64,000 bases of DNA, from NCBI GenBank assembly GCA_030429545.1, contig JAUIFF010000002.1:620001-684000 (forward strand). The letters are read 5' to 3'. Shown one piece after another: positions 1-60,857 of this stretch. The position numbers and the translations under genes were made by a program. Source of the stretch: Polyangia bacterium (GTDB lineage Bacteria; Myxococcota_A; Polyangia; Nannocystales; Nannocystaceae). The notes under the pieces are model-generated. The model did not search any database, had not been told where the DNA came from, and worked only from the letters and a program-made list of their open reading frames with translations. Each line of letters starts with the position of its first letter. Within the stretch, counting starts at the first letter, position 1.

Positions 1-1232
1 GCCCGAAACAACACCACGTTGCCCTTGCGGGCACCCATCGGGCCATCGGGCAGTTCGACCATTTCGTAGGGCACGTGCTGGCAGGCCTTGGCCTGGGCAA
101 ATCCCATTTTCTCGAGCGTCAAAAACACGTGGCGAAAGTGGTCGCTTTGGCGAACATCGACGACATAGATCGAGCGGTCGATGTTGTGGCCGTCGAACTT
201 GAGCTTGGCGAGGGCGAGGTCCTTGGTCGCGTAGAGGCTGGTGCCATCTTGCTTGCGCAGCATAAAAAACGGCATGTGCTTGACCTCGGGGTTGAAGATC
301 CCAACTGCCCCTTGGCTGACCTCAAAGACACCTTTTTGGAGAAACTCCTCGACGATCTCGAGCCCTGGCTCGTCGGCCTGGCTCTCGTAAAACCGCACGT
401 CAAAGTGGATGTCGCAGTAGCGGTAAATCTCTTCAAAGTCGTCGAGCGACCACTTTTTGGTCTCATCCCAAACCTTGGTGATCTCGGGTTCGCGGGCCTC
501 TAGGCGCTGCAGGATTTCGGTGATCCGGGCCTTGGCCTCGGCCAGGCGTTTTGCGGCAGCCGGATCGGTTTTACCGGCCTCCTCCCAATCGGCGAGTGCC
601 ATCGCGGCCTTGGTGTAAATCTTGCCCAACCACTCGCCGCGGTTGTCGGCCGGAGGCTGGCGTTGCTCCTCGCTAAGATGGTCGAGGTACCACCACAGGC
701 AGCGGGCGATATGGGTGCCGACATCACCAAAGTAGTTGGCGGCGATCACCGGGTAACCCTGCGAACGCAACAATCGCACCAGCGAGTCACCCAGGCACAT
801 GTTGCGCAGGTGGCCAACATGCAACGCCTTGTGGGTGTTGGGCTGGCTAAACTCGACCATCAACCGCTCGTCTTGTGTAGCTGCATCTATGGCCGAGCCT
901 TCGCCGGCGAGGGCCGGCAGCAGGAGGGCTCCGGCGCGCCCGGGGTCGAGCGTGAAGTTGAGGTAGGGCCCGGTGGCGAGGATCTTGGCGATCAGCGAAG
1001 TGTCTGAAAGTGCATCTTGTAGTTGGGGCACAAGCTCGGCGGCGATTTTTGGGGGGGCCTTGCGCAGCACCCGGGCGAGTTTGAAACAGGGAAACGCAAC
1101 GTCGCCGAGCTCGGGCTTGGGCGGCTTGGCCAACAGGTCCACGATGTCGTCGGCACCGAGGCCAACTTCGCTTGGCAACGCAGCGGCGAGTTCACAGGCG
1201 ACGGCACGGGCGAGTGAATGGGCAGTGGACAT
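1..1232 (-). CDS. argS: Arginyl-tRNA synthetase, 5' part (gene runs off the left edge)
   Basis: Class I aminoacyl-tRNA synthetase that charges tRNA-Arg in the cytoplasm. Reading leftwards from the ATG at 1232, the protein begins MSTAHSLARAVACELAAALP, has the N-terminal tRNA-recognition domain in roughly residues 1-105, and then the diagnostic block FSQPNTHKALHVGHLRN, whose HVGH (residues 138-141) is the class I HIGH signature. Further on, near 30-60, the frame reads GARKGNVV, the part that follows the KMSKS-like loop in this family. The frame stays open to base 1, so the C-terminal anticodon-binding domain lies outside the window. One copy of the iterated TGYANNTRCA palindrome (876-885) falls inside the gene in a stretch read AIDAATQDE, just before the HIGH block. 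Confidence 0.95.
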   Translation of the reverse strand, partial: MSTAHSLARAVACELAAALPSEVGLGADDIVDLLAKPPKPELGDVAFPCFKLARVLRKAPPKIAAELVPQLQDALSDTSLIAKILATGPYLNFTLDPGRAGALLLPALAGEGSAIDAATQDERLMVEFSQPNTHKALHVGHLRNMCLGDSLVRLLRSQGYPVIAANYFGDVGTHIARCLWWYLDHLSEEQRQPPADNRGEWLGKIYTKAAMALADWEEAGKTDPAAAKRLAEAKARITEILQRLEAREPEITKVWDETKKWSLDDFEEIYRYCDIHFDVRFYESQADEPGLEIVEEFLQKGVFEVSQGAVGIFNPEVKHMPFFMLRKQDGTSLYATKDLALAKLKFDGHNIDRSIYVVDVRQSDHFRHVFLTLEKMGFAQAKACQHVPYEMVELPDGPMGARKGNVVLFR

Positions 1233-1331
1233 GGCGCGTGAGCCTAGTCGAAAACCCGAAGATCTCGCAAACGCCTGATGTCACGAAATCACCGGGTGTC
1301 TCGGCCCAAGTTTTTGAGCGCAACCCGGATA

Positions 1332-2801
1332 TCAAGCGGCCAACAGCCAACATACAACTGTGATCACCGCGATCCCAATGAGGTTGAGGGCAAACCCCTC
1401 GCGCGCCATCTGCCCGGTCGTGACCCGACCCGTGCCGTAGACAATCGCGTTGGGTGCGGTCGCAACCGGCAGCATAAACGCGTAGTTGAGGCCAAACACT
1501 GCCGGCAACATCAGGCTTTGGGGGTCGAGCCCTCCAGCGATCGCAGCCGCCCCGAGGATCGGCATGAGGATGTTGGCGGTGGCCGTATTGCTGGTGACTT
1601 CAGTGGTAAAGGTCGCGACCACGCACAACAGTGGAATCACCAACCACGTGGGCCAATGGGCCAAAAACACCAGGGCTTGGCCGAGGTCGTCGCTGAGGTT
1701 GGAGGCACCAAATGCCTTGCCGATGGCAATGCCCCCGCCGATCAACAAAAAGATGCCCCAGGGGATCGGCGTTGGCGTGTTGTCACGCTCGGGATCGTGG
1801 GCCCGTGGGGTAAACACCTCGGCGTCGAGCAGACGTTTGCCGCGGCCCTCACCACTTGGTAGTACAAATAAAACCACAACCGCAAGCAGGGCCACGGTGC
1901 TGTCGCCGGCGTAGGCCTCGACGCCGAGAAGGCTGCCCCAGCCGCCAAACGGCCCGCTGCGAGTCATCCACAAAAGTGCCATCAGGGCAAACACCAGCAA
2001 CACCCGGACTTCGGCTGGGCGCCACGGGCCGAGGTCGGGCAGGGACAATGGCGACTGACCTCGGACCTTGCGGCACAGCCACAGCCAGCTGAGGGGAATC
2101 ATGCCGAGGACCACCGGTAGGCCAAATCCCATCCACTCGGTAAAACTGATTTCGGTGCCGGTAAGCCCGTGGTACTGCTCCAAAAAGATGAGGTTGGGTG
2201 GGGTTGCAATCGGTGTCCCACTGCCGCCTATCGAGGCACCGTAAGGCACGGCGAGCAGCAGCGGCAGGGTGAGCGAGCGACCTTGTGAGGCGGCGATGAC
2301 TGCGAGCACAACCGGTAGCAGCATCACCGTGGTGGCGGTGTTGGACATCCACATGCTGCACACGGCAGCCGCGATCAAAAAGCCGAGCACCAGCCGGCGA
2401 CCGCCATCGCGGCCGACCGTCCGTACCAGGCCCAGGGCGATCCGCCGGTGGGCGCCGGTGCGTTCCATCGCGTGCGACACGATCGTGCCGCCGAGCATCA
2501 GCAATACGAGGTGGTGGCCATAGGCCGTTGCGACCGTGCGAAAGTCGATCACGCCGACCAGCGGAAACAGGGCAAACGGCACCAGCGAGGTGGCAGCGAG
2601 GGGAATGGGCTCGCCTATCCACCACACCGCACACAGGGTGGTGATGACCGCTGTCCAACATGCCTGTGGGGACAGGCCGGCAAGTTGCCAGGTCAACAGC
2701 CCGACGCCCAGTGCGAGCACTGGCCCGAGCCAAAGGCTCATCTGCCGCCAGGTGGCGAGGCGTTCAGTCGGCGCTGCCGGGTTGGGTGTCGACATCGACA
2801 T
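1332..2801 (-). CDS. DASS/SLC13-family sodium-coupled anion (dicarboxylate) transporter
   Basis: Predicted inner-membrane protein of 489 residues with many hydrophobic segments. It carries two copies of the Ser-Asn-Thr signature of the divalent anion:Na+ symporter family: MWMSNTATTVMLLP near residue 150 and TSNTATANILMP near residue 405. In characterised members these SNT motifs build the sodium and carboxylate sites. Substrates are usually C4-dicarboxylates, but sulfate or citrate cannot be excluded from sequence. The start at 2801 overlaps the 3' end of the upstream DUF3604 gene by 38 bases, and a second in-frame ATG lies two codons in, so translational coupling is likely. The DUF3604 neighbour gives no clear hint of the substrate. 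Confidence 0.85.
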   Translation of the reverse strand: MSMSTPNPAAPTERLATWRQMSLWLGPVLALGVGLLTWQLAGLSPQACWTAVITTLCAVWWIGEPIPLAATSLVPFALFPLVGVIDFRTVATAYGHHLVLLMLGGTIVSHAMERTGAHRRIALGLVRTVGRDGGRRLVLGFLIAAAVCSMWMSNTATTVMLLPVVLAVIAASQGRSLTLPLLLAVPYGASIGGSGTPIATPPNLIFLEQYHGLTGTEISFTEWMGFGLPVVLGMIPLSWLWLCRKVRGQSPLSLPDLGPWRPAEVRVLLVFALMALLWMTRSGPFGGWGSLLGVEAYAGDSTVALLAVVVLFVLPSGEGRGKRLLDAEVFTPRAHDPERDNTPTPIPWGIFLLIGGGIAIGKAFGASNLSDDLGQALVFLAHWPTWLVIPLLCVVATFTTEVTSNTATANILMPILGAAAIAGGLDPQSLMLPAVFGLNYAFMLPVATAPNAIVYGTGRVTTGQMAREGFALNLIGIAVITVVCWLLAA

Positions 2802-5148: not shown

Positions 5149-5686
5149 ATGTAGCTGCATGTGAACCGGCTCGGGCGTCGCGAACGAACCGACCCTCGAC
5201 AGCCGCCCGCATTGTCCATTTCCGGAGGTGGCCGCGTCGAAAACGTGTCGACCGGTCGAGCACGCCGTCGCTGTCGGGGATGGTGATGGCCCCATCACCG
5301 GTCGCCCCGTTCGAGCTCGCGGGCCGCGATATTCCGGCGAAGGCACAGGATCGCTGGTTGCTGATACACAGAGACTCGCTTGCACAAACCCCGGTGACGA
5401 GTGCGCAGGCAAGCGCGGTCGAGAGCAAAGACCGAGCTGCCGGGGCGTGGGAACATCGAACCGTGGGCCTGAGCCGAGTTCTCGCGCCACGCTTGTTTTT
5501 GCGAGCGGCCCCCCGACTGTCGTTGGCGCGACTTGGCACCCCGTAATCTGTCAGCTGGCGCGGCCGTGGGCGGGCTAGCCAGTCCGGGCACAGCTCACTG
5601 GCGAGTCCATGCCACAGTGGCCCGTGGCCGCCGGTTTTTCGGTTCGAGAGCCATACGGCCGGCCGTACTTCGGTACACTCGGGCCG
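5149..5686. other. Spacer with no convincing gene
   Basis: 538 bases between the small membrane ORF and the AAA+ gene. Several arginine/proline-rich open frames on both strands look like chance frames of GC-rich DNA. The least bad candidate is a minus-strand stretch around 5300-5450 that contains a signal-peptide-like run (LLSTALACALVTGVCASE) but has no good start and no recognisable continuation. One iterated palindrome, TGTAGCTGCA, lies at 5150-5159, directly after the upstream stop codon. A promoter for the AAA+ gene presumably lies near 5640-5680, but I cannot define it. Confidence 0.5.
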
Positions 5687-7372
5687 ATGCCCAATGCGCT
5701 TGTTGTCACTCCTCCCGTCGGCGGTTTTGACCGTTCTGGCCTGCGCGACCTTGTCAAAGATTCGGGACTTGCCGCGGCCCTGCACACCCGTGTACGTGCA
5801 CCGTTTGGCCATACCGTATTGACCCTGCGTACTCTCGAGGCGGTGATCGAAGCCGGCGACTTGGCCTTGCAGACAGGTGAAGCCCTGCACGCGGCCCTGC
5901 TCGAAGATATCGCTGCCACTGGCACGCTGGCGATTCCCGAGCCCACCCTCGACCAGCGCCTGTTTATTGGTGCATTTACAATTATTGTGTTGTGCGACGG
6001 GCTCATCCCCCAGCTCGCCGCGCTGGCCCCCTCACCGCAGCTGACCTCCGACCTAGAGCTCAGCGGGCTCGAGGAGCTTTTGCAAGAGAGCCCGCGACTG
6101 GTGATGGAGCGGCTGCTGGCGATGGCGGGCCGCTACCTCGATGTGCAGGCCAAGCGCAAGGGCGCGGGCGGGGACACGGTTGAGGAGCGGGCGCGCTGGG
6201 TTGTCACCACTGTACATGCATTTATTGCCCAGCTGCGTGGCGCCGTCGAACGCCTCACCCACCTCGGTCGCCTGCGTCCGTTTGGCCTGGCCCTGCGCCA
6301 GCGCAAGGTTGTGATAGGCGACCGCCGCTACGAAGGTTTTTTGGCGCGCAACCTGGCCGAGCCGGCTTCCGACCTCAAACCCGTGCAGATCGACGATGTC
6401 GTTGGCAACCGCGAGTACATCGATGCCGCGCTGAGGCTTTGTCGCGATGTTGCCGCCTACGACCTCAACACCCGCAAAAGCCCCAAGACGATCAACCCGG
6501 TGCTGTTTGGCCTGGGTCGCCCGGGTTGTGGCAAAACCATTACCGCCCACGCCGTTGGCAATTACTTTTTGGAGTACTGCCGCGAACGCGACATCCCAGC
6601 TCGGTTTAAAGTGATTCGCCGGACCGACTGGGCAAGTTCCTACCAAAATGCAAGTGCGGCCACCCTGATCAAGATTTTCAAGGAGGAGGTCTACGGGTTT
6701 GAGGGGGTGTGTGGGGTCTACTGGCCCGACATCGACACTGCGTTTGCCTCGCGCGGGAGCGGCAACCTACGCATGGAGGAGAAAAACAACCTCGGGGCCG
6801 TGTTTGGAATCTTTGACGGTACATTGATTCCCAAGGACGGCAAGTGGTTTATGCTGTGCGACGCCAACTACATGCAAATGGACGAGGCCACGACCTCGCG
6901 GATTGCCCAAAACCCGTTTACCGTGCGCGGCCCGACTTCCCCCGAGGATTATGTCCGGTTGCTGCGCGATGTCTTGCTACGCGACGTTCGTCAAAACGTG
7001 CACCCTGACGATCCGGCCTGGCAACAGGTTGGCGAGGCGCTGGTCAAGGCCGACCTCAGCGGCCGCCAGTGTGAGAGCATTGCCGGCAACATCCGTGCCC
7101 ATATCCAGGACTTTGAGTACCCCGAGCACTATTTCAAGGCGAGCTTTGCCGACCGCCAAAAAATTATCGCCGAGCTAAGCAAAAAGGTGGGAACCGCCGA
7201 GGTGTTGCAGCGAATTGATGACTATACAAAGTTTCACCGCGAGGCCGAGGAAAAGGAAATGACCGAACGTTTCGAGCGCGAGGTTTCGCAGTTGGTCGAG
7301 CGCCTCAACGCCGGACGCGAGGCCACCGCGCGGGCAGCCAAAGATGCCGAGAAGGCGATTTTGGAGGGTTAG
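5687..7372 (+). CDS. AAA+ ATPase with atypical Walker B, C-terminal coiled coil
   Basis: A 561-residue protein. The first 220 residues are a helical domain I do not recognise. An AAA+ core follows, with Walker A GRPGCGKT at residues 277-284. Where Walker B should read hhhhDEID, the sequence is VYWPDID (residues 344-350), so Pro and Asp replace the usual Asp-Glu. The following TAFASRGS and the sensor-1 segment LCDANY (390-395) align well with AAA proteins, as does ATTSRI for the arginine-finger side. The last 60 residues are charged and probably coiled coil. The ATG at 5687 is preferred over a frame extension to 5609. Three iterated palindromes (5791, 5971, 6211) fall inside. The gene is followed at 11 bases by a lipoprotein gene on the same strand. 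Its job is unknown. Remodelling of a protein complex is the generic AAA+ role. Confidence 0.8.
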   Translation: MPNALVVTPPVGGFDRSGLRDLVKDSGLAAALHTRVRAPFGHTVLTLRTLEAVIEAGDLALQTGEALHAALLEDIAATGTLAIPEPTLDQRLFIGAFTIIVLCDGLIPQLAALAPSPQLTSDLELSGLEELLQESPRLVMERLLAMAGRYLDVQAKRKGAGGDTVEERARWVVTTVHAFIAQLRGAVERLTHLGRLRPFGLALRQRKVVIGDRRYEGFLARNLAEPASDLKPVQIDDVVGNREYIDAALRLCRDVAAYDLNTRKSPKTINPVLFGLGRPGCGKTITAHAVGNYFLEYCRERDIPARFKVIRRTDWASSYQNASAATLIKIFKEEVYGFEGVCGVYWPDIDTAFASRGSGNLRMEEKNNLGAVFGIFDGTLIPKDGKWFMLCDANYMQMDEATTSRIAQNPFTVRGPTSPEDYVRLLRDVLLRDVRQNVHPDDPAWQQVGEALVKADLSGRQCESIAGNIRAHIQDFEYPEHYFKASFADRQKIIAELSKKVGTAEVLQRIDDYTKFHREAEEKEMTERFEREVSQLVERLNAGREATARAAKDAEKAILEG

Positions 7373-7383: not shown

Positions 7384-8127
7384 ATGTTGTTGCCCCTAGA
7401 CTTAGACCCTGTTCGGCTCGCGCCCCGAGTGCTCTGGCTGCTGGCGTTAGGCTTGATGGGCTGTCAACCCGAGGCGGCCGCTGGACCTGAGGAGCAGCGC
7501 TTGGTGGCCGCTGCGGTGCAGCCTCCCGATGTCGCGGACCAACTTCGCGAGCTGACCAAAACCTGCAACCCGGTGCCCGGTACAGGCCGGTTTCGGACCG
7601 ACGCTGGCAAGTCGCCGACGGTGCAGTTGTGCCAACTTCCCGGGGCGATTTTTTGGCGGGCCGACGCCGATATCGACTGCGATGGCCAGACCGATCCCCG
7701 GTGTGCCAAAGACCCGTGGCGACAACCCGAAACCTCGGCCAAGGGCACCGACGGGCAATTTATCAATGCCGCCGACGTTCCATTTTTGGTGGTGCCGATG
7801 GCCAGCGAAGGATTTGAGCCCAAGGCCCATGGGATCAAAACCGGGTGGTCGGGCTATGGCAGCGCGGGGGTGGTGCTGTACAACGGCCGCATGGTCTTTG
7901 CGCCATACGCCGATGCCGGGCCCAAGGGGGTGATCGGAGAGCTGTCGTTTGCCGCAGCCCAAGCCCTGGGTATCGACCCCGACCCGGTCCGCGGTGGGGT
8001 GGCCGAGGGCGTGACCTATATTGTATTTACAGGCGAGCAGGCCTATGTGAAGCCGGTTGAAGACCCGGTGATGGCCCGTGAAGTGGGGCTCAGGTTGGCA
8101 CGACAACTCGTGGGCGAGTCCCAATAA
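7384..8127 (+). CDS. Lipoprotein with GH75-type chitosanase-like domain
   Basis: A 247-residue protein. Residues 10-25 form a lipoprotein signal ending in LGLMGC, so it should be lipidated and held at the envelope. The mature part contains AIFWRADADIDCDGQTDPRC, a cluster like the acidic DxDxDCDG region of glycoside hydrolase family 75, then YGSAGVVLYNGRMVFAPYAD and GVIGELSFAAAQALGI, where the Glu in GELS matches the GE-S segment of that family. GH75 enzymes cleave chitosan. Whether this one does, or acts on peptidoglycan or another amino sugar polymer, is open. The ATG at 7384 is chosen over a TTG one codon earlier. One iterated palindrome (8022-8031) lies in the frame. Confidence 0.6.
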   Translation: MLLPLDLDPVRLAPRVLWLLALGLMGCQPEAAAGPEEQRLVAAAVQPPDVADQLRELTKTCNPVPGTGRFRTDAGKSPTVQLCQLPGAIFWRADADIDCDGQTDPRCAKDPWRQPETSAKGTDGQFINAADVPFLVVPMASEGFEPKAHGIKTGWSGYGSAGVVLYNGRMVFAPYADAGPKGVIGELSFAAAQALGIDPDPVRGGVAEGVTYIVFTGEQAYVKPVEDPVMAREVGLRLARQLVGESQ

Positions 8128-8792: not shown

Positions 8793-9818
8793 ATGAGCGG
8801 ATCGACCTCTTCAACCACCACGTCTTCACAACCCCTCGACCTCGTGACCGGCGGGGCGGGGTTTTTGGGGAGTGAGATCGTTCGCCAACTACTCGCGGCT
8901 GGCCGGAGCGTGCGTGTGCTGGCGTTGCCCGATGAGCAGCTCGACAACATTGAGGGGCTCGATGTCGAAGTTGTGCGCGGCGATGTGCGCTCACGCGAAG
9001 ACTGCGAGGCCGCGGTTTTGGGGTGTTCTCGGGTCTATCACGCCGCGGCGATCTATCGCGACTACATGCCCGACCCCACGCCGCTTTACGAAGTCAACAT
9101 GCGCGGGACCTTCAACATGCTCGAGGCGTCGCGGCGCGAGGGGGTTGAGCACGTTGTGTTTACGGCGAGTGTGGTGGCCCTCGGGCGGCCCAAACCCGGG
9201 GAGCTCGGCGATGAGACAACCCCCTACGAGGCCTGGAACATCGACTTTCCCTACAGCCGCAGCAAGTACCACAGCCGGCGGCTCGCCGAGGACTTTGTCA
9301 CCTGGGGGATGGATGTTCGGATCGTCTGTCCGGGGATGGTTTTTGGCCCCGGCGATGTTGGGCCAACACCGTCGGGGCAGCTCATTGTCAATGTCGCAAG
9401 TGGCAAGGCTCCGGGCTGGACCGAAGGGGGCTGTGGCTATGTCGATGTGCGCGACGCTGCCCGGGTCCATGTACTTGCATCCGAAAAGGGGCGGCCCGGC
9501 CGGCGCTACCTCGCAGTTGGCCACAACCTCGACAACCGCGACTTTTTGACGACCGTGGCCAAGATCGCCGGACGTAGCCACAAACTGCCCAAGATCCCCA
9601 AACCGCTGGCACGGATGTATTTGCAAACACTCGGCAAGTTGGCGATTCGTCGCGGCGACACCCCGATGATGACCCGGGCGATGTTCGATTATAGCTGCCA
9701 GCCGGTGTTTTTTAACAACCGGCGGTCGGTCGACGAACTCGGGATGATCTACCGCCCGATCACCGAAACAATTGCAGATGCAATTCGTTATTTTCGCGAC
9801 CAGAAGTTGATCGACTAG
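8793..9818 (+). CDS. NAD-dependent epimerase/dehydratase, HpnA-like
   Basis: Extended short-chain dehydrogenase of 341 residues. After a Ser/Thr-rich N-terminus comes the Rossmann signature VTGGAGFLGSEIV (GxxGxxG). The segment VYHAAAIYRDYMPDPTPLYE, then NMRGTFNMLEA and the catalytic YSRSKY (YxxxK), resemble the hopanoid-associated sugar epimerase HpnA and dihydroflavonol-4-reductase groups. A nucleotide-sugar or prenyl-linked substrate is plausible, but no hopanoid genes are nearby, so the exact reaction is not assigned. Three iterated palindromes (9470, 9616, 9773) occur in the last third, two of them within 160 bases. A terminator follows. Confidence 0.75.
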   Translation: MSGSTSSTTTSSQPLDLVTGGAGFLGSEIVRQLLAAGRSVRVLALPDEQLDNIEGLDVEVVRGDVRSREDCEAAVLGCSRVYHAAAIYRDYMPDPTPLYEVNMRGTFNMLEASRREGVEHVVFTASVVALGRPKPGELGDETTPYEAWNIDFPYSRSKYHSRRLAEDFVTWGMDVRIVCPGMVFGPGDVGPTPSGQLIVNVASGKAPGWTEGGCGYVDVRDAARVHVLASEKGRPGRRYLAVGHNLDNRDFLTTVAKIAGRSHKLPKIPKPLARMYLQTLGKLAIRRGDTPMMTRAMFDYSCQPVFFNNRRSVDELGMIYRPITETIADAIRYFRDQKLID

Positions 9819-12198: not shown

Positions 12199-13920
12199 CT
12201 ACACGCCTCCTGCGAGCGCGGTGATCTCCCGGGCCGCGGCCATGGTCTCATCGGTAGCCAACTCCTCGGCCCAGGGCACGAGGCGGTTTTGGTAAAACAA
12301 CAGTAGGTTCGGATCTTCGATCCGCAGGCGGTCGCCGACCCGCTCGACGACCGTGGTCGAGTGATAGCCTTCCCAGGCGTCGAGGGCGGTCTCGAGCAGA
12401 CCGGCTGGGGTTTCGCAGCGCAGGCTCGGGTCGACCCGTACACGCCCTTCGCTTTCGAGACCGAGCAGGGCATTTCGTGCATGTGCAATGTCTTCGATGA
12501 GTTGCTGGCGCGGCATTTCGACTTCCCCGCGCAGGCGTTGGCGGCTAAATAGGTCGCGGCCACGGGTTTCGGCGACAAAGTAGCGATACAGCAGGTGGGC
12601 GACCAGCTGGGTCCACATAATGACGGTTTCGCGGTGGTAGGCCGCGGTCAGGTATTCTCCGAGCTCGCGGGTGTAGCCGGCGTCGCGGGCCGCATCGACC
12701 GAGGCCACGCCACCGCGGCGGACGTAGGTGCCGGGGTCAATCGTGCGACCGCCGGGGACCAGCGACTGGCCGTTGTCGTCGACGGGATTGCAAAACGGAT
12801 CGATCGGGTCGGCAAACCGAATCACGCAGGCGCTTTGCAGACCCCGGAGTTTCGCTGTAAATGCAAGCATCCGATCGAGCTGCGAGGACTCGTCGTCGGT
12901 GATGATGTAGCGTGCCTTGCCTGCGCCCTTGAGGTGGTCGGCAATCAGGGTTTCGGCCTCGAGCACGAGTGCATAGTTGATGGTGACGGGGACAAAAAAC
13001 AGGGGCCGCGGGGTTCCGCGGACCTGGTTGCGAGCAAACGCTTCGATCGCCGTGCCGGCCAGCCCGAGCTTGACCTTGCGCTCGATCATCCCGGAGCGCG
13101 AGCGTGTCCCCCCGGGGAAAAACAGCGAGTGATAGCCGCGCTCGAGCATCAGGCACGAGTAGGTCTTGAGGACATCTTTGTAGACCTGTGCACGGATCCG
13201 ACGGTCGACGCGATAGGCCCCGAGGTTGTGCATAAAAAAGCTGAGCACCGGGTTTGAAAACAGGTTTTTGCCGGCACCGTAGACGACGGGGGGCAGGCCC
13301 TCGCGCACCAGGGTATAGCCGAGGGCGACCGAGTCGAGGTTGGAGCTGTGGGTTGGGACCAGCACCAGGGTGCCGATTTGGGCGAGGCGCTTGAGTTTGT
13401 CGATGTCCCCCTCGGCCTGCAGCCGCTGGTTGAGCATGGTCCATTGTAGCTGCAACAAATCCCGGGGGAGGGCGCGGGGGTTCATCACTCCGGTGAGCAC
13501 GCCCGGGACAATATGTTGGGTCATGCGGTAGACCCGGGTGTCGAAGTTGCCAGCGATGTCGCTGGCGAGATGGTCGACGATCTTGCGCAGCTCCTCGGTG
13601 AGCTCGGCATGCGAGAGTTTGGCGATCCGGCGTGAGAGCTTGCGCCAGCGGTCGAGCTCAAACGCGGTCTCGTCGTCTTTTTGCCCGGCGAGACGCCGGG
13701 TTTCGCTGTTGGCCGCGTCGTTGAGGATGTACTCGACATGGGCCCGCGAGCTGGCGTGGCGATCGACAACCCGGGCAACGACGTCGGCGATCACCTGTTG
13801 ACGCTCGGCGTTAAAGTGAAAGATCCGCGGATCGCCAGGTTGCTCGGCCCGGGGAAAGAGGTTTGGCACCCGCAGGGGCCTGGCCTTGAGAACACGGGCG
13901 ACGATCGACTTGATGCGCAT
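12199..13920 (-). CDS. PlsB/PlsC-superfamily glycerophospholipid acyltransferase
   Basis: A 573-residue protein with the LPLAT-type catalytic motifs: THSSNLD (His191, Asp196; the HX4D pair) and FFPGGTRSRSG (residues 267-277; usually FPEGTRSR), plus GAGKNLFSNP and VPVTINY matching the PlsB-type sub-motifs. These enzymes acylate glycerol-3-phosphate or lysophosphatidate at the membrane. The long N-terminal (190 residues) and C-terminal (250 residues) extensions favour the GPAT (PlsB) class over PlsC. The neighbouring GpsA-like gene would supply or sense glycerol-3-phosphate, which supports a role in phospholipid or storage-lipid synthesis. Three iterated palindromes (12478, 12856, 13445) lie inside. 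The start ATG at 13920 is the only good one. Confidence 0.8.
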   Translation of the reverse strand: MRIKSIVARVLKARPLRVPNLFPRAEQPGDPRIFHFNAERQQVIADVVARVVDRHASSRAHVEYILNDAANSETRRLAGQKDDETAFELDRWRKLSRRIAKLSHAELTEELRKIVDHLASDIAGNFDTRVYRMTQHIVPGVLTGVMNPRALPRDLLQLQWTMLNQRLQAEGDIDKLKRLAQIGTLVLVPTHSSNLDSVALGYTLVREGLPPVVYGAGKNLFSNPVLSFFMHNLGAYRVDRRIRAQVYKDVLKTYSCLMLERGYHSLFFPGGTRSRSGMIERKVKLGLAGTAIEAFARNQVRGTPRPLFFVPVTINYALVLEAETLIADHLKGAGKARYIITDDESSQLDRMLAFTAKLRGLQSACVIRFADPIDPFCNPVDDNGQSLVPGGRTIDPGTYVRRGGVASVDAARDAGYTRELGEYLTAAYHRETVIMWTQLVAHLLYRYFVAETRGRDLFSRQRLRGEVEMPRQQLIEDIAHARNALLGLESEGRVRVDPSLRCETPAGLLETALDAWEGYHSTTVVERVGDRLRIEDPNLLLFYQNRLVPWAEELATDETMAAAREITALAGGV

Positions 13921-14073
13921 AGCGGCCGTCAGGATACGTGTTCGCGGGCCGTAGTGAAATACGCTAGCTCCGCGCCGGCGGTCATTCGCGACCGCAGCTC
14001 AAAACCGAGATGGCTGTGTTCGCGCCATCGGCCCCGGCTTTTGTGCAGATGCAACCGGAACCGGCCGCGGTGT

Positions 14074-16060: not shown

Positions 16061-16109
16061 GTGTAGGTGCATGGATACCCGGCGCCAGGTGCCAGGGAAG
16101 TTGCCCCGG

Positions 16110-16964: not shown

Positions 16965-17088
16965 GCTTGTAGGTGCAATAACACAACGGGCGAAATCAGC
17001 CAATGGTCGTCAAATGGACCAGAGCAACGTTCTAGTGCGGTCGGAGGTGGTTATGTGGCAACCTCGGTCGCCGGTGTAAACTCGAGCT

Positions 17089-45138: not shown

Positions 45139-45224
45139 TGTTTAGGGTTTTTGGTGAGCGACTTAAAAAGCGTCGAGCGGAGCGGGTCGCAGGGACCCGT
45201 CCGCTCACGAGATGTATGTGCATG
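45139..45224. repeat. Duplicated element, copy B, containing a strong hairpin
   Basis: Second copy of the 44699-44785 element. It contains a 13-bp stem with a one-base bulge: GAGCGGAGCGGGTC / GACCCGTCCGCTC (45175-45188, 45194-45206). On the minus strand the hairpin is followed by GACGCTTTTTAAG, so this copy can terminate transcription of the CBS gene that stops at 45226. An iterated palindrome (45213-45222) lies inside the copy. Confidence 0.6.
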
Positions 45225-48153: not shown

Positions 48154-50016
48154 CTACTCGACGGTGACCGACTTGGCGAGATTGCGCGGCTGGTCGACGT
48201 CGGTGCCCTTGAGGTCGGCAAAGTGGTAGGCCAGCAGCTGTAGCGGGACACTCGCGGGAATCGGCTGGAGCTCCTCGGGCACATCGGGAATCAAAATCAC
48301 ATCGTCGGCGAGGTCACCGATTTCGTGGTCGCCCATGGTTGCAACTGCAATGATTTTACCGCCGCGGGCCCGGACCTCTTCGAGGTTGGACACGACCTTT
48401 TCGTAACCGGGGCCCTTGAGTGCCAACACCACCACGGGGACCTGCTCGTCGATCAGGGCGATCGGGCCGTGCTTCATTTCGCCGCTGGCGTAGCCCTCGG
48501 CGTGGATATAGCTGATTTCCTTGAGCTTGAGTGCACCTTCGAGGGCGGCCGGGAAACACAGCCCGCGGCCGAGGTAGATGCAGTCGCGGGCGCCCATGTA
48601 GCGGCGCGCGATGATTTTGATCGCCGATTGTTGTGCCAGCAAGTTTTCGACCACGGCCGGGAGCTCGCGCAATCCGGTGAGCAACTCGGCCGCGCGTTCG
48701 GGGCTGAGGTTGCCGGTCCGGCGCCCGAGGTGGATCGCCAGCATCGTCATGACGGTGAGTTGGGTGGTAAACGCCTTGGTCGAGGCAACGCTTATCTCCG
48801 GACCGGCCCGGGTAAAGATGACGTTGTCGGCCACCCGTGTAAGGGTGGAGCCCTGGACGTTGCACACCGCAAACGTGTGGGTGTTGCGCGACTTGGCCTC
48901 GCGCAGGGCCGCGAGCGTGTCGGCGGTCTCGCCCGATTGGCTGATGGCGACGGCGATATCGCTGGGTTTCAAAATCGGGTCGCGGTAGCGAAATTCGCTG
49001 GCCAAATCGACCTCAACCGGGATCCGAGCCAGCCGCTCAATCAGGTATTTGCCGGTCAGGGCGGCGTGCCACGACGTCCCGCAGGCGACCATCACAAGGC
49101 GGGTTTCGGGGCAAAGCGGGAGGTCGAGGCCATCGAACTCGACATCGTCTTCGGTGACCGTTGCCCCGAGGGCCGTGTCGCGAATGGCCCGCGGCTGCTC
49201 GTGGATTTCCTTGAGCATAAAGTGCTTGTAGCCCTGCTTTTCGGCGGCCATCGGGCTCCAGTCGATCCGCCTGCGGGGACGCCGGATCGACTTGCCGTCG
49301 CGGTCGAGAATTTGCAGGTGACCCGGGCGAACACAGGCGACATCACCCTCTTCTAGGTCAACGATCAGCCGGGTGTGGGCGAGCACGGCCGAAACATCGG
49401 AGGCGATAAAGTTCTCCGGACCTTCAGCTGTCCCTTCAGACACACTCGGACCACTGCCGCCGAGGCCGATGACAAGCGGCGAGTTGTGGCGGGCAACGAC
49501 CAGCGCATCGGGCTCGCCTTCGTGCACGACCGCAAGCCCCCAACTGCCCGACAGTCGCCCCTGGATGTGATGGACCGCCTCGATCAGCTCACAGTCGAGT
49601 TCGGCGAGGGCCTGGACAATGAGGTGGGCGATGACCTCGGTATCGGTCTCGCTCTCAAACACACAACCCTTGGCGAGTAACTCGCGGCGCAGCTCGGCGT
49701 GGTTTTCGATGATCCCGTTGTGGACCACGGCCAGACGTCCGGCGCGGTGGGGGTGGGCATTGACCTGCGAAGGGGCCCCGTGGGTCGCCCAGCGCGTGTG
49801 CCCGATGCCGCAACTTCCGGCCAGCGGGTGGGCGTCGAGCTCCTCCGTCAAACCGGCGATTTTGCCTTCGCGCCGCGCTAGTTGTAGGCCCTTACCTTCG
49901 GGATGAACCACCGCGACGCCGGCTGAGTCGTAGCCGCGGTATTCGAGCCGACGAAGGCCTTCGAGTAACAGAGGGACCGCGTCCCGTGCTCCGGTATAGC
50001 CAATAATTCCGCACAT
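48154..50016 (-). CDS. glmS: Glutamine--fructose-6-phosphate aminotransferase (isomerizing)
   Basis: 620 residues. Makes glucosamine-6-phosphate for peptidoglycan and LPS. Mature N-terminus is the catalytic Cys of MCGIIGYTG, followed by LRRLEYRGYDSAGVA, GHTRWATHG, HNGIIENH, then two SIS domains (ACGTSWHAALTGKYLIERLA, ISQSGETADTL, VASTKAFTTQL) and the C-terminal DQPRNLAKSVTVE. ATG at 50016; the longer frame to 50061 would hide the catalytic Cys. No glmS ribozyme is apparent in the short leader. One palindrome at 48340. Confidence 0.97.
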   Translation of the reverse strand: MCGIIGYTGARDAVPLLLEGLRRLEYRGYDSAGVAVVHPEGKGLQLARREGKIAGLTEELDAHPLAGSCGIGHTRWATHGAPSQVNAHPHRAGRLAVVHNGIIENHAELRRELLAKGCVFESETDTEVIAHLIVQALAELDCELIEAVHHIQGRLSGSWGLAVVHEGEPDALVVARHNSPLVIGLGGSGPSVSEGTAEGPENFIASDVSAVLAHTRLIVDLEEGDVACVRPGHLQILDRDGKSIRRPRRRIDWSPMAAEKQGYKHFMLKEIHEQPRAIRDTALGATVTEDDVEFDGLDLPLCPETRLVMVACGTSWHAALTGKYLIERLARIPVEVDLASEFRYRDPILKPSDIAVAISQSGETADTLAALREAKSRNTHTFAVCNVQGSTLTRVADNVIFTRAGPEISVASTKAFTTQLTVMTMLAIHLGRRTGNLSPERAAELLTGLRELPAVVENLLAQQSAIKIIARRYMGARDCIYLGRGLCFPAALEGALKLKEISYIHAEGYASGEMKHGPIALIDEQVPVVVLALKGPGYEKVVSNLEEVRARGGKIIAVATMGDHEIGDLADDVILIPDVPEELQPIPASVPLQLLAYHFADLKGTDVDQPRNLAKSVTVE

Positions 50017-50165: not shown

Positions 50166-50933
50166 CTACATAAAGCAGGCCGCGACTTCGTCCGGGCAGT
50201 TGGCGTTGGTGCACTCGGCATCGAAGCACCCGTTTTCAACGGCGCACTCAAACAGCTCACCGAAGGTCGGCTGGTCGTCAAATGTCCCCTCGTACAGGCA
50301 GTTGAGCTCGCAGCCTTCGTAGCCCGGGTCGCAAAAAAAATCGAGGCAATCGATCATCTCGGGGCAGGTGAGTGGGCCGGAGTAGCAGGCAAAAAGCTCG
50401 TCGCCGCAGTTGGCTTCGAGGCACTGCTCATCGCCGTTACACATGTTTTCGATGTCACACAGCACCAGCGCATGGGCTTCGCCGGCCCCGATTTCGCTGC
50501 CGAGCTCTAGGCAGGCCTCGTAACAGGCCTCATCTTCGCAGGGCTCTGCACATGCAAGTACAAGGACACAGGTCAGCTCCTCGTAAACCACACCCCCGGT
50601 GTCGGTGTCGGTGTCAGTCTCGCTCGGATCGGTGGTCGCATCGGTTGTCGAGGTCGTAGGCTCGTCGGTGGTCTCGCTGGTGTCGCTGTCGCTTGTGGTC
50701 GCGTCGGATGTTGTCGCAGTTGTCGTGGTCGCGTCGGTGGTGGCATCCGAATCGGAGCCAGATGGGCCAGCTGTGGTCGGCTCTCCTGTGGTCCCGGTTG
50801 GCTCGCCACTTTCGCTGGTCTCGCTCGCCTGTGAGGTCGAAGCGTCGGTACTCGACCCGGTGCCGGGATCACCTCCACAGGCCGGGGGCAGGGTGAGCAA
50901 CAGGACAAGGGCAACAGGCGACAGAGATTTCAT
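50166..50933 (-). CDS. Lipoprotein with long Thr/Ser/Asp linker and Cys-rich domain
   Basis: 255 residues. Signal ending LPPAC, then about 95 residues of Thr/Ser/Asp/Glu/Pro low complexity (a typical Nannocystales spacer), then a Cys-rich domain with about 18 cysteines in repeated C-x3-C and C-x5-6-C spacings (CVLVLACAEPCEDEACYEAC, CLEANCGDELFAC, CPEMIDCLDFFCDPGYEGC, CFDAECTNANC). Surface-exposed, disulfide-rich; function unknown. Two overlapping iterated palindromes (50547-50562) fall near the start of the Cys-rich domain. Confidence 0.7.
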   Translation of the reverse strand: MKSLSPVALVLLLTLPPACGGDPGTGSSTDASTSQASETSESGEPTGTTGEPTTAGPSGSDSDATTDATTTTATTSDATTSDSDTSETTDEPTTSTTDATTDPSETDTDTDTGGVVYEELTCVLVLACAEPCEDEACYEACLELGSEIGAGEAHALVLCDIENMCNGDEQCLEANCGDELFACYSGPLTCPEMIDCLDFFCDPGYEGCELNCLYEGTFDDQPTFGELFECAVENGCFDAECTNANCPDEVAACFM

Positions 50934-51078: not shown

Positions 51079-52158
51079 TCAGTCGCGGGTGAGGTGTAGG
51101 GTTGCGCGTTGGCGGTGGCGAGCAAGCGCCAGCTCGCACAGCCGGGTGATGAGCTCGCAGTAGGCAACACCCGCGTGCGCCATCAACTTGGGGTACATCG
51201 AGATGCTGGTAAACCCGGGCAGGGTGTTGATCTCGTTGAGGTACGGCACCCCGGTCTTGCGCTCGAGCAAAAAATCGACCCGCGCCAGGCCATGGCAACC
51301 ACAGGCGCGAAATGCTTGTAGACTCAAGTGTTTTAGCTGGGCGATCACCGGGCCGGGAAGTTTGGCCGGGATCTCGAGGCCGGCGACATCGGCGATGTAC
51401 TTGGTGTCGTAGTCGTACCAGGTGTTCGGCGGGAGGACGATTTCACCGGGGTCGCTGACGATTGTCTCGGGGCCGCCATCGCCTAAAACAGCGAGCTCAA
51501 TCTCGCGGGCGTCGACGGCCTTCTCGACCACAACCTTGGCATCGTAGCGCCCGGCAAGTGCGAGTGCGGTGGCGAGTTCGGTCGCGTTGTGGGCCTTGGT
51601 AATGCCCACCGAACTGCCCTGGTTTGCCGGTTTGACAAAACACGGGTAGCCGAGCTTGCGCTCGACGGCAGCTGTGAGTGCGGGCAGCGACGAGGGCAAC
51701 AGCCGGGCATCACACTCGATCCACGGGATCTGCGGGACCGCGGGCTCGAGGTTGTGCAACACGTGTTTGCTGATGGCCTTGTCCATGCAAAGCGACGACC
51801 CGAGCACGCCCGAACCGACATAGGGAAGCCCGAACGCCTCGAGCAACCCTTGAAATGTGCCGTCTTCGCCGTAGGGCCCGTGCAACACCGGAAACACGAC
51901 GTCGGCGTGGAGGGCCCGAATGTCGGGGACCGGGGTGCCGTTGGCGACAATGTCAGCGAGCAGTGCTGGCGATGCTTGTTCGGCGCTCGGACACGGCCCG
52001 GTCGTCCACGAGCCATCGCGGCCAATGCCCAACAGCACGAGCTTGAACCGCTCGCGGTCGACAGCTTGCAGGACCGAGGTTGCGCTGCGCAGGGAGACTT
52101 CGTGCTCCGAGCTACGGCCACCAAACACGAGAACGAGGGTACGGGGCTGCGTGTGCAT
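51079..52158 (-). CDS. ddl: D-alanine--D-alanine ligase
   Basis: 359 residues, ATP-grasp enzyme making the D-Ala-D-Ala peptidoglycan dipeptide. Seen: VFGGRSSEHEVSLRSA, VFPVLHGPYGEDGTFQGLLE, GSGVLGSSLCMDKAISKHVL, YPCFVKPANQGSSVGITKA, REIELAVLG, ARVDFLLE and LNEINTLPGFTSISMYPKL, with the usual metal and substrate residues. The ATG at 52158 is itself covered by an iterated palindrome (52154-52163), and no Shine-Dalgarno is seen. Confidence 0.95.
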   Translation of the reverse strand: MHTQPRTLVLVFGGRSSEHEVSLRSATSVLQAVDRERFKLVLLGIGRDGSWTTGPCPSAEQASPALLADIVANGTPVPDIRALHADVVFPVLHGPYGEDGTFQGLLEAFGLPYVGSGVLGSSLCMDKAISKHVLHNLEPAVPQIPWIECDARLLPSSLPALTAAVERKLGYPCFVKPANQGSSVGITKAHNATELATALALAGRYDAKVVVEKAVDAREIELAVLGDGGPETIVSDPGEIVLPPNTWYDYDTKYIADVAGLEIPAKLPGPVIAQLKHLSLQAFRACGCHGLARVDFLLERKTGVPYLNEINTLPGFTSISMYPKLMAHAGVAYCELITRLCELALARHRQRATLHLTRD

Positions 52159-52163
52159 ATACA
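52154..52163. promoter_or_regulatory. Iterated palindrome overlapping the ddl start codon
   Basis: TGCATATACA on the plus strand; on the minus strand TGTATATGCA, whose ATG is the ddl initiation codon. A protein bound here would cover the start site. Confidence 0.4.
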
Positions 52164-52765: not shown

Positions 52766-54112
52766 ATGCTCGACATCAAGGTACTGCGCGAAGCGCCCGA
52801 GTCCGTTTGCGACAACCTCAAAAAACGCCGCGTGCGGATTTTTGACGACGTCGATTTGCAGGCCGATTCGTGGGCCGAGCAGACCACCGCGCGACTGCAA
52901 AAACTCGACCAAGACTACCTCGATTTACTGCATCAACAGGAGCAGCTGCGGCGTCAGCAAAACGACAACTCGGCGGCCATGCGCAAGGTCGGGAAGTTGC
53001 CCAAGGCCGAGCAGGCGGCGGCGCGCAAACCCCTGATCGCCACCGGCCGCGAGTTGCGAGAACGCGAAAAACAACTGGCCGAAGCGACTGAGCAGGCCCA
53101 AGCCGCCCGCGACGATGCCTGGCGTTGTGTCCCAAACCTGACCCATCCCGCAGTCCCCACCGGGCACCTAGACAGCGACCACAAGGAGCTGCGCAAGGTC
53201 GGGACACCCCGGGATTTTCAAGCCGAGGGGTTTGAGCCCAAAGATCACCTCGAGCTGGCCGAGGAGCGTGCCTGGGTCGACTTTGGTGCCGGTGCACGGG
53301 TCGCCGGGCAAAAGTGGTACTACCTGAAAAACGCCGCGGTCCTGCTCGACTTGGCCCTGCAGCGCTACGCCTTAGGGGTTGCCCAAAAGCACGGGTTTAC
53401 CCTCCACATCACCCCCGACTTGGCCCGCCGCGACATCCTCGACGGATTGGGTTTCAACCCGCGGGGCGAGTCGACCCAGGTCTACAGCATCGAGCGCTCC
53501 GACCTGTGCCTGGTGGGCACCGCCGAAATCACCCTCGGGGGCATGCTGGCCGACAGCATCCTCGCGGAGGAAGAACTACCGTTGCTGGTCGCCGGGCTTT
53601 CGCACTGCTTTCGCACCGAGGCCGGAGCCGCCGGCCAGGAGTCGCGCGGACTCTACCGTGTCCACCAGTTCACCAAGGTCGAGTTGTTTGCATTTACAAC
53701 ACCAGACCAAAGCGACCTGATGCACGACAAGCTGCTGGCGATCGAGGAGGAGATTTTTCAAGGTCTCGAAATCCCCTATCGCGTCCTCGACATCGCCAGT
53801 GGCGACCTAGGTGGCCCCGCCTACCGCAAGTACGACCTCGAGGCCTGGATGCCCGGGCGCAATGCCTACGGCGAGATCACCAGCACCAGTAACTGCACCG
53901 ACTACCAGGCACGCCGCCTCAAAATTCGCTATCGCCCGGAGGCGGTCGACGGCAAGAAGCAAAAGCCCAAGTACTGCCACATGCTCAATGGGACAGCCGT
54001 GGCATGCTCCCGGGCCCTGGTTGCGATATTCGAGAATCACCAGCAAGCCGACGGTCGGGTGAAGGTGCCCAAGGTGTTGGTGCCGTGGGTGGGGGCAGAG
54101 TTCATCGGCTAG
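52766..54112 (+). CDS. serS: Seryl-tRNA synthetase
   Basis: 448 residues, class II synthetase. Start ATG at 52766 (MLDIKVLREAPESVCDNLKK). The N-terminal long antiparallel coiled coil that grips tRNA-Ser spans about residues 25-110. Motif-2 and -3 blocks follow: LVGTAEITLGGML, GLSHCFRTEAGAAGQESRGLYRVHQFTKVE, DIASGDLGGPAYRKYDLEAWMPG, EITSTSNCTDYQARRL and MLNGTAVACSRALVAIFENHQ. The frame extension to 52652 is not family-like. A palindrome (53689) replaces the usual QF/LF segment after KVE by FAFTT. Confidence 0.97.
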   Translation: MLDIKVLREAPESVCDNLKKRRVRIFDDVDLQADSWAEQTTARLQKLDQDYLDLLHQQEQLRRQQNDNSAAMRKVGKLPKAEQAAARKPLIATGRELREREKQLAEATEQAQAARDDAWRCVPNLTHPAVPTGHLDSDHKELRKVGTPRDFQAEGFEPKDHLELAEERAWVDFGAGARVAGQKWYYLKNAAVLLDLALQRYALGVAQKHGFTLHITPDLARRDILDGLGFNPRGESTQVYSIERSDLCLVGTAEITLGGMLADSILAEEELPLLVAGLSHCFRTEAGAAGQESRGLYRVHQFTKVELFAFTTPDQSDLMHDKLLAIEEEIFQGLEIPYRVLDIASGDLGGPAYRKYDLEAWMPGRNAYGEITSTSNCTDYQARRLKIRYRPEAVDGKKQKPKYCHMLNGTAVACSRALVAIFENHQQADGRVKVPKVLVPWVGAEFIG

Positions 54113-54203: not shown

Positions 54204-56459
54204 TCATTGGGTCATGCCGATGACCCGCCACGAACCAAACCGTTTTTCGAGCAGCAAGATCAGGTGGCTGCCGCCGATTTTTGTGACCGCGTAGTTGCGC
54301 GGGCGGCCCTCGACGACGCCGGCCGGGAGCCCTCCGAATTTCTTGCGCAGGCCGGCGGCGGTGTAGACCTTGACGGCGGTCGCCTTTTTCCCGCGGGCCT
54401 CGTCGGCCATCGAGCGCAGGACTTCGGTGAGCTCTTTTTTTGTACGTGCAACGATTTGGTCGCCGGCATAAAACGGCACGCTGCTGCGGCCGACCATGCG
54501 TTCGACGTCGGCCTTGCGCAGGAGGTTGATCCAGCCCTCGGCGGTTTGCTTGGCCCGCGGGTCGGCGGTTTCGTTGGCCTTGGGTTGCTCACTGCGCGAG
54601 GGCAGCAGCGGGACCGCCTGTTGACCCCGTGGGCCCTTGGCTATTGGGCCTGGCGGTGGATGACCGCCGGGACCGTGGTTGTGCCCCGCGTGTGAACCCG
54701 AACCGTGGCCGCCGGGACCGTGGTTGTGGCCCGCGTGTGAACCTCCCCCAGAACCGCCGCCGCGGGGTGTGCCTGGTGGTGGGGCCGGACCTTCTGGGCC
54801 ACTGGTGGTGGGACCCACCTGTTTGGCCAGGCGTTTGCTGCGATTGGCTCGCAGTTGCGACGTTGTCGGTCGGACCTCGTGGGTCGGGTCGGGGCGATCG
54901 CCCTGGCCGGCGTTGTCCAAAATAAATGGTGATGCACCGAATGTGCCGCAGGCCCGGGCGTCGCGGTGAAACGCCCAGTGCATATAAATCTTGCCATTGC
55001 CGCTGCGGATCGATCGCGGCGGGTTGGGGTAGGGACCGGCGGCGTAGACAATTTCCCTTGCAGCTGCATCGAATGTCATGTTGCCGGAGTAGCGCACGGT
55101 CCGGACCTTATCGATCGTGCCGTTGCCATTGAGGACAATCTCCACCCGGGTCCACAGTTTTTCGTCGTTGAGCGCGTGGCCGCGGCCGCGGGTATCGAGG
55201 CCGTCGAGGTAGCCCCATGCCCAGGCGTCGTGGATCGAGCGGTGCATCTGGGCGATGTAGCGGGCAAACGGGTGCTTGCGTGACTTGAGGGCCGTTTGGT
55301 TGCCGGGGCGAACCTCGGGGACCATGTTTTCAAGCGGCGACTGCCAGCGCTTGCGGGCATCTTCCCAGATGCCTTTTTTCTTACTCTCGCGCTGGCTGAT
55401 GATGTTTTTCTTGGCTTGCAGGTCCTTGCCGTAAAGCGCGTCGAGGTCGTTTTGCGAGAGCTTGAACTGGAATTTTTTGTCGTGGCGATCGACCCGGGCC
55501 TGCTGGTCGCGGGCCTGCAAACTCGCTGCCTCGGGCCGGTCGGGGTTGAGGTTGCCGTCGTCGGCGGCGTTGGCCAGGGCATCGTGACGGGTCATCGCCT
55601 CCTTGTGGTCGCGCGGCGCTTGCTCGCGTAGGGCCAACAGCGAGGTCGGTTTGGGGTCTTGCTGCTCCGGGCGCTTGTCGACCGGTTGCGGGGTCTCGTT
55701 GGGGGCCTTGCGGTTGACCTGACTTTTTTGTTCTTCGAGCTCGGCGATTTTGGTCTCGTCGGCGGTCCCAACCTCGGGCTCCTTGCTCGGCTCCTGTTGG
55801 CTGGCCTCGGGAACCTTTGCATCTTCAACTAAATTGGTGACCTCGGCCCGGGTTTGTTCCTCGACATCGCGGTTGATGTTCGACAGGTATTCCGCGTCGT
55901 CGGGGCTGTCCTGCTCGTCGAACTCATCGAGTTGCTCGACCATCTTGAGTTGCTCGAGCACAAAGTGTTGTTTTTCGGGCTCAGGCTCAGGCTCAGGTTG
56001 CGGCTCGGGCTCGGGCTCGGGCTCGGGCTGTGGCGTGACCTCGGGTTCGGGCTCAGGTTCGGGCTCGGGCTCTTGCGGCTTTTTTTCGGGTTTGGGCTCG
56101 GGCTCGGGCTCGGGTTGTAACTCGGGTTCGGGTGCGGGAGGTACAGGCGTTGGCTCCTCGAGCAACGCAACTTCCATGGGCACCGGTTCGGGCGGACATT
56201 CGGCCCCGAGCAAAAAAGCTTCGACCCCACCCGCGAGTTGCGAGACGTCACCGCTGAGCGAGTCTTGCAAAAGGTCCCCGCTACGCTCGAGCCCATCGCG
56301 ACACGATTTGATCCTCGCATCGGCGGTCACAAGCGTTGGCCGCTCGCGCTCGACAAGGACCTGCAGGCCAACCACAACCGCGGCGTAGTTAATCCCGAGT
56401 GACAGGGCGAAACACAGCGCCAAGATCCCTGTCGAAGTTCTTTTGCGGCTCGTCCGCAC
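54204..56459 (-). CDS. TonB-like energy-transducing protein with His-rich repeats and extra C-terminal domain
   Basis: 751 residues. Basic N-terminus and one membrane anchor (residues 11-35), a long Glu-Pro-repeat spacer (about 100-163), a polar/coiled region (165-390), a TonB-type C-terminal domain (about 397-500; [20 protein letters not shown], then [20 protein letters not shown] and [19 protein letters not shown]), a His/Gly tandem repeat (571-600, two copies of [13 protein letters not shown]) and a final domain (about 640-751; [41 protein letters not shown]) resembling NTF2/SnoaL-like sheets. The domains after TonB are unusual. Two palindromes at 54441 and 55059. Confidence 0.75.
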
Positions 56460-59982: not shown

Positions 59983-60012
59983 TCGGTACTTGCAGTTACA
60001 CGAAAATCCCGA

Positions 60013-60606
60013 TCACAGGGCAGCCTCAACCGCCTCGGTGAGGGCGGCGTCGAGGGGCGCGACGTTGGGTTCAAACCGGCCGATCACCCGGCCTTCGCGG
60101 TCGACCAAAAACTTGGTGAAGTTCCATTTGACCTCACCCCGGATCCCCTCGGGTGTCTGCTCGCTCAGGGTTTTGTACAGCGGGTGGATGTCTGAGCCCT
60201 TGGCGTGGACCTTGGCGAACATCGGAAAACTGACCTGAAACTTTTGTTGGCAAAACGTTTTGATCTCGGCCTCGGTGCCCGGCTCCTGGCCGCCAAAGTC
60301 GTTGCTGGGAAAACCCAACACCACCAGGCCGCGCTCGCGATAGCGGTCGTAGAGCTGCTGCAGGCCCTCGTATTGCGGGGTAAAGCCACACTGTGAGGCC
60401 GTGTTGACGACCAGCGCAACCTTGCCCTGAAAGTCGCGCATGTTCTTTTTGTTGCCGTCGATGTCGACAACCTCGTGCTCGAGCACTGGATTCTGCGACG
60501 AATCCTTAGCGACTGGTTTTGGGGTGGGTTTTTGAGCCTGTGAACCACAGGCTGTGAGGGCAAGGGCAATGGCGAGGGTAAACGGTCGGGACAGCACGGC
60601 TGCCAT
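60013..60606 (-). CDS. Glutathione peroxidase-family lipoprotein
   Basis: 197 residues. Signal with lipobox ALTAC (Cys20), so periplasmic. Gpx fold: LVVNTASQCGFTPQYEGLQQLYDRY with peroxidatic Cys73, VLGFPSNDFGGQEPG (Gln) and VKWNFTKFLVDREGRVIGRF (Trp, Asn). Bacterial members usually use thioredoxin as reductant. Divergent from a peroxiredoxin gene across a 251-base spacer, giving an antioxidant gene pair. Palindromes flank it on both sides (59991 and 60663). Confidence 0.9.
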   Translation of the reverse strand: MAAVLSRPFTLAIALALTACGSQAQKPTPKPVAKDSSQNPVLEHEVVDIDGNKKNMRDFQGKVALVVNTASQCGFTPQYEGLQQLYDRYRERGLVVLGFPSNDFGGQEPGTEAEIKTFCQQKFQVSFPMFAKVHAKGSDIHPLYKTLSEQTPEGIRGEVKWNFTKFLVDREGRVIGRFEPNVAPLDAALTEAVEAAL

Positions 60607-60857
60607 GGTACCCGGCAAACGCCAACTGTCGACCACAGCGCGAGCGCCAATCATGATTGGCTTGCAGGTGCATCGAACGCACGACAGCAAAGATCCGCGT
60701 CATAACCCGGCGTGTTGCCGAAAAATGGCATGCGAGGATTACCACGGTCAGCTTTGGCAAAGGTCACGCGAAAGTCGTCAATCGGGTACATCGCTCGCGT
60801 ATAACACCCACACATACACCGGCCCTGCGGGCCGAACTTTGCAGCAAGGAGCAATCC

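Follow-up and report, generated by a model that had tools for sequence, protein, structure and literature searches.

The degenerate palindrome TGYANNTRCA occurs exactly 45 times in the 64-kb window, i.e., the whole stretch of DNA whose first lines are given above, the first copy being located at 876-885 and the last at 60663-60672. Across the host genome about 4,900 places have been turned into this one 10-bp palindrome, mostly via synonymous codon changes. We propose, with a probability of roughly one half, that each copy is a recognition site of a dimeric, sequence-specific, DNA-bending protein which acts genome-wide. Ever since the discovery of HIP1 (highly iterated palindrome 1) in cyanobacteria it has been an open question why some genomes amass a single palindrome in the thousands. 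The present case is an independent one in another phylum. It offers a clean codon-level signature, a resolved symmetric footprint and relatives with a different word, and this makes the cause testable.

A first-pass annotation of the sequence had reported about 45 copies where one or two were expected. The count is correct. The expectation holds for independent bases (1.7), but an order-5 Markov model predicts 4.3, and the G+C content of the window, put at roughly 64%, was measured slightly lower at 62.3%. The whole genome (8.6 Mb in 39 contigs) contains 4,915 copies compared with 412 of a mirrored control pattern. The density is similar across the sampled contigs, e.g., 409 copies in contig C39 (784 kb) and 196 in contigs C24 and C18 together (320 kb). 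For the detailed analyses about 1.2 Mb of the genome was read as sequence. When different spacer lengths between the half-sites are compared N2 alone is enriched. The count was compared with a codon-preserving null model, as the annotation had advised, and is far above it: the coding DNA of C39 contains 339 copies, compared with 42.9 ± 4.7 after synonymous-codon shuffling within each gene and 20.6 after codon-order shuffling. Overall, the excess in coding DNA is 8-fold. The intergenic DNA of C39 contains 66 copies where 5.9 are expected. The gaps between sites are distributed nearly exponentially (Kolmogorov-Smirnov p=0.56). A regular or helical spacing was rejected on account of this fit; close pairs have no clear phase except for an overlap at a distance of 6 bp (7 pairs).

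The position of the word relative to the codons is highly specific. In frame 2, xxT GYA xxT RCA, all four A/T letters of the motif are at wobble positions. In 1.0 Mb of coding sequence 415 copies are in this frame versus 5.8 under the synonymous-codon shuffle, an enrichment of about 72-fold, and the remaining two coding frames are enriched 2.6-fold and 1.6-fold. In the same coding test the other wobble words ATAT, TTAA, AATT, TTTT and AAAA show no comparable enrichment.

When genes of the window are aligned with those of relatives the residues at the sites are kept, yet the codons differ. Where a site codon specifies the same residue the relatives have C or G at the wobble position in 61 of 64 instances, and amino-acid identity is 0.80 at site codons compared with 0.64 elsewhere. 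Six frame-2 sites illustrate the situation. At 53689-53698 (TGCATTTACA) the host encodes the residues FAFT as TTT GCA TTT ACA, and four relatives encode them as TTC GCC/G TTC ACC/G. Within glmS, at 48340-48349 (TGCAACTGCA), ATT GCA GTT GCA stands against ATC GCG/C GTC GCG/C in relatives; at 54441-54450 (TGTACGTGCA) GTT GCA CGT ACA against GTC GCC CGC ACC in relatives; at 55059-55068 (TGCAGCTGCA) GAT GCA GCT GCA against GAC GCC GCC GCC in the sister; at 41730-41739 (TGTAGCTGCA) ATT GCA GCT ACA against GTG GCC GCG ACC in the sister; and at 37461-37470 (TGTATCTGCA) ATT GCA GAT ACA against CTC GCC GAG GCC in a relative. Several aligned sites comprise four separate silent changes each, and no gaps were seen at any site that could be aligned. 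Because relatives encode the same residues with C or G, the copies appear to be independent silent substitutions and not insertions; judged from these alignments, the alignable copies arose mostly through silent point substitution. Copying of the site, which the first-pass annotation had considered, is thus not borne out, whereas its other suggestion, selection on the DNA site and not on protein, agrees with the excess at wobble positions and with the different codons used by relatives for identical residues. Clearly, the pressure acts on the DNA word rather than on the protein.

The near-misses in frame 2 describe how the word is recognised. When the inner A4 or T7 is changed a 3.2-6.7-fold enrichment remains for all six base changes, and transitions are not favored among them (A4 to C +48, A4 to G +41). 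When the outer T1 or A10 is changed 1.25-1.6-fold remains for most bases, the transitions T1 to C and A10 to G being at 1.25-fold and 1.6-fold, respectively; the exceptions, T1 to A (3.3-fold) and A10 to T (2.4-fold), are based on small counts. Two changes together leave 1.1-1.3-fold. Recognition is graded, i.e., strict for the outer TG/CA and softer for the inner A/T. Mutational decay would enrich transitions alike at all four positions. This is not seen, and therefore the pattern fits selection on affinity; it matches the prediction of graded selection, or of graded drive, on recognition strength.

The preferences continue beyond the core. Position 0 avoids C, position -3 avoids G, positions -7 to -2 are A-rich and positions -8 to -11 are modestly C-rich, all of which is mirrored on the other side. 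Intergenic sites taken alone possess the same main flank features. Beyond these preferences no conserved sequence exists outside the core. The symmetric footprint covers at least 24 bp, possibly 34. The 10-bp description of the first-pass annotation captured the core and missed the constrained positions outside of it; the dimeric reader which it suggested on the basis of fixed half-sites fits well with a symmetric, graded and extended site. Graded two-fold symmetry and extended flanks are features of sites for dimeric DNA-bending proteins, and both are present here.

Of the 45 sites in the window, the gene calls place 35 inside genes and 10 in spacers. The site density in short spacers is 2.38 per kb between convergent, 0.70 between tandem and 0.42 between divergent genes. 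A gene-poor stretch of low G+C content (0.55-0.60) and flat GC skew, C39:360000-500000, contains 0.10 intergenic copies per kb versus 0.73-0.77 outside, and its frame-2 occupancy is 2.3% versus 3.8% elsewhere. We grade this region as atypical instead of foreign. Evidently, the copies avoid promoter-side spacers and under-populate an atypical low-GC region. Two triple sites were encountered. One has three copies of the palindrome in 29 bp (TGCATGTGCATGTACACCATGTACATGCA, C28:259839-259867) at a junction preceding an ABC-transporter gene; it was considered as a pointer to a regulator, and its location indicates none. The other, C39:283423-283485, is within a convergent spacer.

The further sites of the window, to which no strand is assigned, are as follows. 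Frame 2 comprises TGTAGCTGCA at 876-885 (in a minus-strand gene, all A/T letters at wobble positions), TGTACGTGCA at 5791-5800, TGCATTTACA at 5971-5980, TGTACATGCA at 6211-6220, TGTATTTACA at 8022-8031, TGTACTTGCA at 9470-9479, TGCAGATGCA at 9773-9782 and 20346-20355, TGCATGTGCA at 12478-12487, TGTAAATGCA at 12856-12865 and 47701-47710, TGTATTTGCA at 15432-15441, TGTAAGTGCA at 17520-17529, TGCAGTTGCA at 18009-18018, TGCAACTGCA at 35742-35751, TGCAGATACA at 40839-40848, TGTAGATGCA at 46104-46113, and TGCACATGCA at 50547-50556, which overlaps TGCAAGTACA at 50553-50562 in the 6-bp register. Frame 1 has TGTATTTGCA at 9616-9625 and 32117-32126, TGTAGCTGCA at 13445-13454 and 41194-41203, TGTAGATGCA at 36913-36922 and 37831-37840, and TGCAGATGCA at 46319-46328, which shares 4 bp with TGCAACTACA at 46325-46334, again in the 6-bp register. 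Frame 0 is represented by TGTATATACA at 17819-17828, TGTAGCTACA at 43291-43300 and TGCAGGTGCA at 60663-60672. Convergent spacers contain TGTAGGTGCA at 16062-16071, TGCAGGTACA at 24763-24772, TGTATGTGCA at 45213-45222 and TGCAGTTACA at 59991-60000; divergent spacers TGTAGCTGCA at 5150-5159, TGCATGTGCA at 28327-28336 and TGCATATACA at 52154-52163; other spacers TGCAGATGCA at 14044-14053 and TGTAGGTGCA at 16968-16977.

The host is most probably a member of the Nannocystaceae within the Myxococcota; among named genomes the glmS protein of the window is nearest to those of Nannocystis pusilla (70%) and Paraliomyxa (63%). No comparable enrichment of TGYANNTRCA was found among the genomes of 98 relatives or among 379 genomes of the phylum, two sets which partly overlap; among the genomes sampled it is confined to a single one. 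Moderately high counts in three genomes (G096, G058 and G119) are explained by composition: samples of them have 6-9 sites compared with 4.9-6.3 under a Markov-3 null, and two of the three have about 40% G+C. The nearest sister, G001 from the same genus, contains 387 copies versus 609 of the control. With 70% versus 61% G+C and a glmS identity of 76% the sisters are not close. The first-pass annotation would have counted a lack of enrichment in sister genomes with the same codon usage against the site. This lack is literally what was found, but it does not refute the site, since codon usage is not the same in the sisters and their genomes contain a different iterated palindrome.

This second palindrome is TGTCYN4RGACA (TGTCYNNNNRGACA). 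Six genomes of a Nannocystis-like genus, g12, have 2,141-3,312 copies versus 6-13 of the mirrored pattern, and a seventh, fragmented genome has 458 versus 5. The genomes which carry it in raised numbers are G020, G023 and G025-G028 of g12, plus G001, G009 and G017. Two neighbouring genera, g1 and g9, have intermediate counts (word/mirrored): 437/4 in G001 and 257/20 in the host genome, and 167/7 and 231/1 in g9. Elsewhere in the family and class the numbers are near chance. The window contains five copies, at 11185, 31551, 49429, 58428 and 58743. The coding DNA of G027 has an excess of the word in all frames (21 versus 1.5), yet the word is densest in the promoter-side, i.e., divergent and tandem, spacers, and therefore its function may differ from that of TGYANNTRCA. 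A literature search for either word yielded no relevant description. Tentatively, we suggest that the Nannocystaceae may possess a system of genome-wide DNA words for which no bacterial counterpart has been described. The palindrome preferred by a reader would be silently written into thousands of genes and swapped for another when one genus is compared with the next; the Nannocystis-like genus would use TGTCYN4RGACA and the host TGYANNTRCA, the host genome still containing 257 copies of the former. A comparison of the genera could reveal how the word changes. As a separate observation, TCGCGA is avoided in host C39 (490 versus 992 expected) and in contig C4 of sister G001 (660 versus 968), and TTCGAA is avoided in host C39 (178 versus 311) and over-represented in the same sister contig (206 versus 72).

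The pattern points to a protein or process which reads one DNA word throughout the genome. We infer that the reader is a protein and not a process of repair or modification; it would probably be dimeric and have a chromosomal role. Such a reader, for instance a chromosome-organising protein, would recognise every copy, and a weak recurrent pressure for binding may have written the site into nearly all stretches that are free to change, namely synonymous wobble positions and convergent spacers. Several points weigh against this proposal. The fitness contributed by each site alone can hardly account for a pressure on about 4,900 separate loci; drive or repair would work without such a contribution. 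No reader protein was identified in the approximately 1.2 Mb that were read, in which no systematic search for DNA-binding proteins was made. The C-richness at positions -8 and -11 partially overlaps with wobble positions. Finally, none of ten proteins examined from the low-GC region of C39 belongs to a mobile-element family; the foreign origin of this region is unproven.

Modification of the site by an orphan DNA methyltransferase is on the unlikely side, yet it has to be weighed seriously. The word would then accumulate through mismatch repair that is directed by methylation, or because methylation itself is selected for, as proposed for HIP1 (GCGATCGC) of cyanobacteria. The footprint extends at least 12 bp from the centre, and methyltransferases usually select narrower sites. 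Further, a 3-7-fold enrichment survives the change of A4 or T7, so that A4 is unlikely as an essential modified base. The host genome has no C5 methylase and no convincing HsdM. It contains four N6_N4 methyltransferases. One, encoded at C14:116919-118289 (L218:6917-8290), is a solitary, lineage-specific SPPYW-type enzyme, to which 378 other genomes of the phylum contain no match at E≤1e-25; for the other three, genomes of the family that are devoid of the motif encode relatives with 60-71% identity, which argues against them. By its uniqueness the C14 enzyme would be the best writer, but its nearest relatives (about 56-61%) are plasmid enzymes of Klebsiella and Acinetobacter beside NotI-family nucleases, a pairing which suggests a GC-rich target. 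A second solitary, lineage-specific enzyme at C24:18906-20993 (L264:1904-3997) is an Eco57I-like N6-adenine methyltransferase with an NPPY motif in an arginine-biosynthesis neighbourhood, followed by the gene for a WYL-domain regulator. Within the family it has a relative, 49% identical, only in the sister; the BseCI and TaqI methylases are distant structural relatives. No nuclease was recognised beside either gene, and the site is strongly over-represented and not avoided as the target of a restriction-modification system would be. Either enzyme, C24 or C14, might conceivably act as the partner in a HIP-type process. In favor of such a partner, a survey reported that every genome with highly over-represented words encodes one or more putative methyltransferases capable of methylating these words, and the extensions of HIPs are palindromic, too (PMC4390886).

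Rather unlikely as well is a DNA uptake signal, in which a competence receptor would prefer TGYANNTRCA and molecular drive would spread the word through permissive core positions. Uptake sequences form dialects between related bacteria, and the swap of words between related genera resembles these. Like TGYANNTRCA, the uptake sequences of Neisseria and the Pasteurellaceae occur in thousands of copies and have a position-graded mismatch enrichment; they occupy permissive parts of the core genome, are missing from recently acquired genes and, in Haemophilus, have a 29-bp extended consensus (PMC1939737, PMC2397512); the sparsely populated low-GC region would be a parallel if it were acquired. However, known uptake sequences are non-palindromic (PMC1939737), whereas TGYANNTRCA has a two-fold symmetry which continues into its mirrored flanks. 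Moreover, the g12 word is concentrated in promoter-side spacers, unlike TGYANNTRCA.

It is very improbable that the sites are operators of a single transcription factor whose regulon is very large. Graded recognition of a palindrome together with its extended flanks would suit such a factor, as would the higher density of TGTCYN4RGACA in divergent and tandem spacers, but in the host promoter-side spacers are the poorest, coding and convergent positions are the richest, and most window copies are intragenic. A copied repeat or a by-product of codon usage, which the locally AT-rich sites in a GC-rich genome might suggest, has a negligible probability and is contradicted by both codon shuffles, by the intergenic excess and by the ungapped alignments, and nothing beyond flank preferences is shared outside the core.

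For the dimeric DNA-bending protein which we favor, the sites of global DNA-bending proteins such as Fis or CRP offer a parallel, as does the AraR/GntR operator TTGTACGTACAA, which contains TGTACGTACA: the core is two-fold symmetric and the flanks are A/T-rich. Thousands of near-exact intragenic copies that arose by silent substitution are not known for any of them. Other parallels come from chromosome maintenance, where Chi, the FtsK-orienting polar sequences (KOPS) and the SlmA and MatP sites are short genome-wide words read by proteins. Chi and KOPS are oriented, and SlmA and MatP sites number in the tens and are distributed regionally, unlike TGYANNTRCA. As a precedent, HIP1, which the first-pass annotation had named, is of the right class. 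Like TGYANNTRCA, HIP1 and the alternate HIPs of cyanobacteria are vastly over-represented palindromes, occur about once per 1-2 kb in coding and spacer DNA, and comprise lineage-specific alternate words with palindromic extensions (PMC4390886). They differ in being contiguous, GC-rich words which overlap methylation sites, whereas TGYANNTRCA is interrupted, degenerate and A/T-containing, has wide flank preferences and belongs to another phylum. Thus, TGYANNTRCA behaves like a HIP but is not classed as one, because it is not a contiguous word and its partner methyltransferase is only a candidate. Genome-wide, lineage-specific iterated palindromes exist outside the cyanobacteria.

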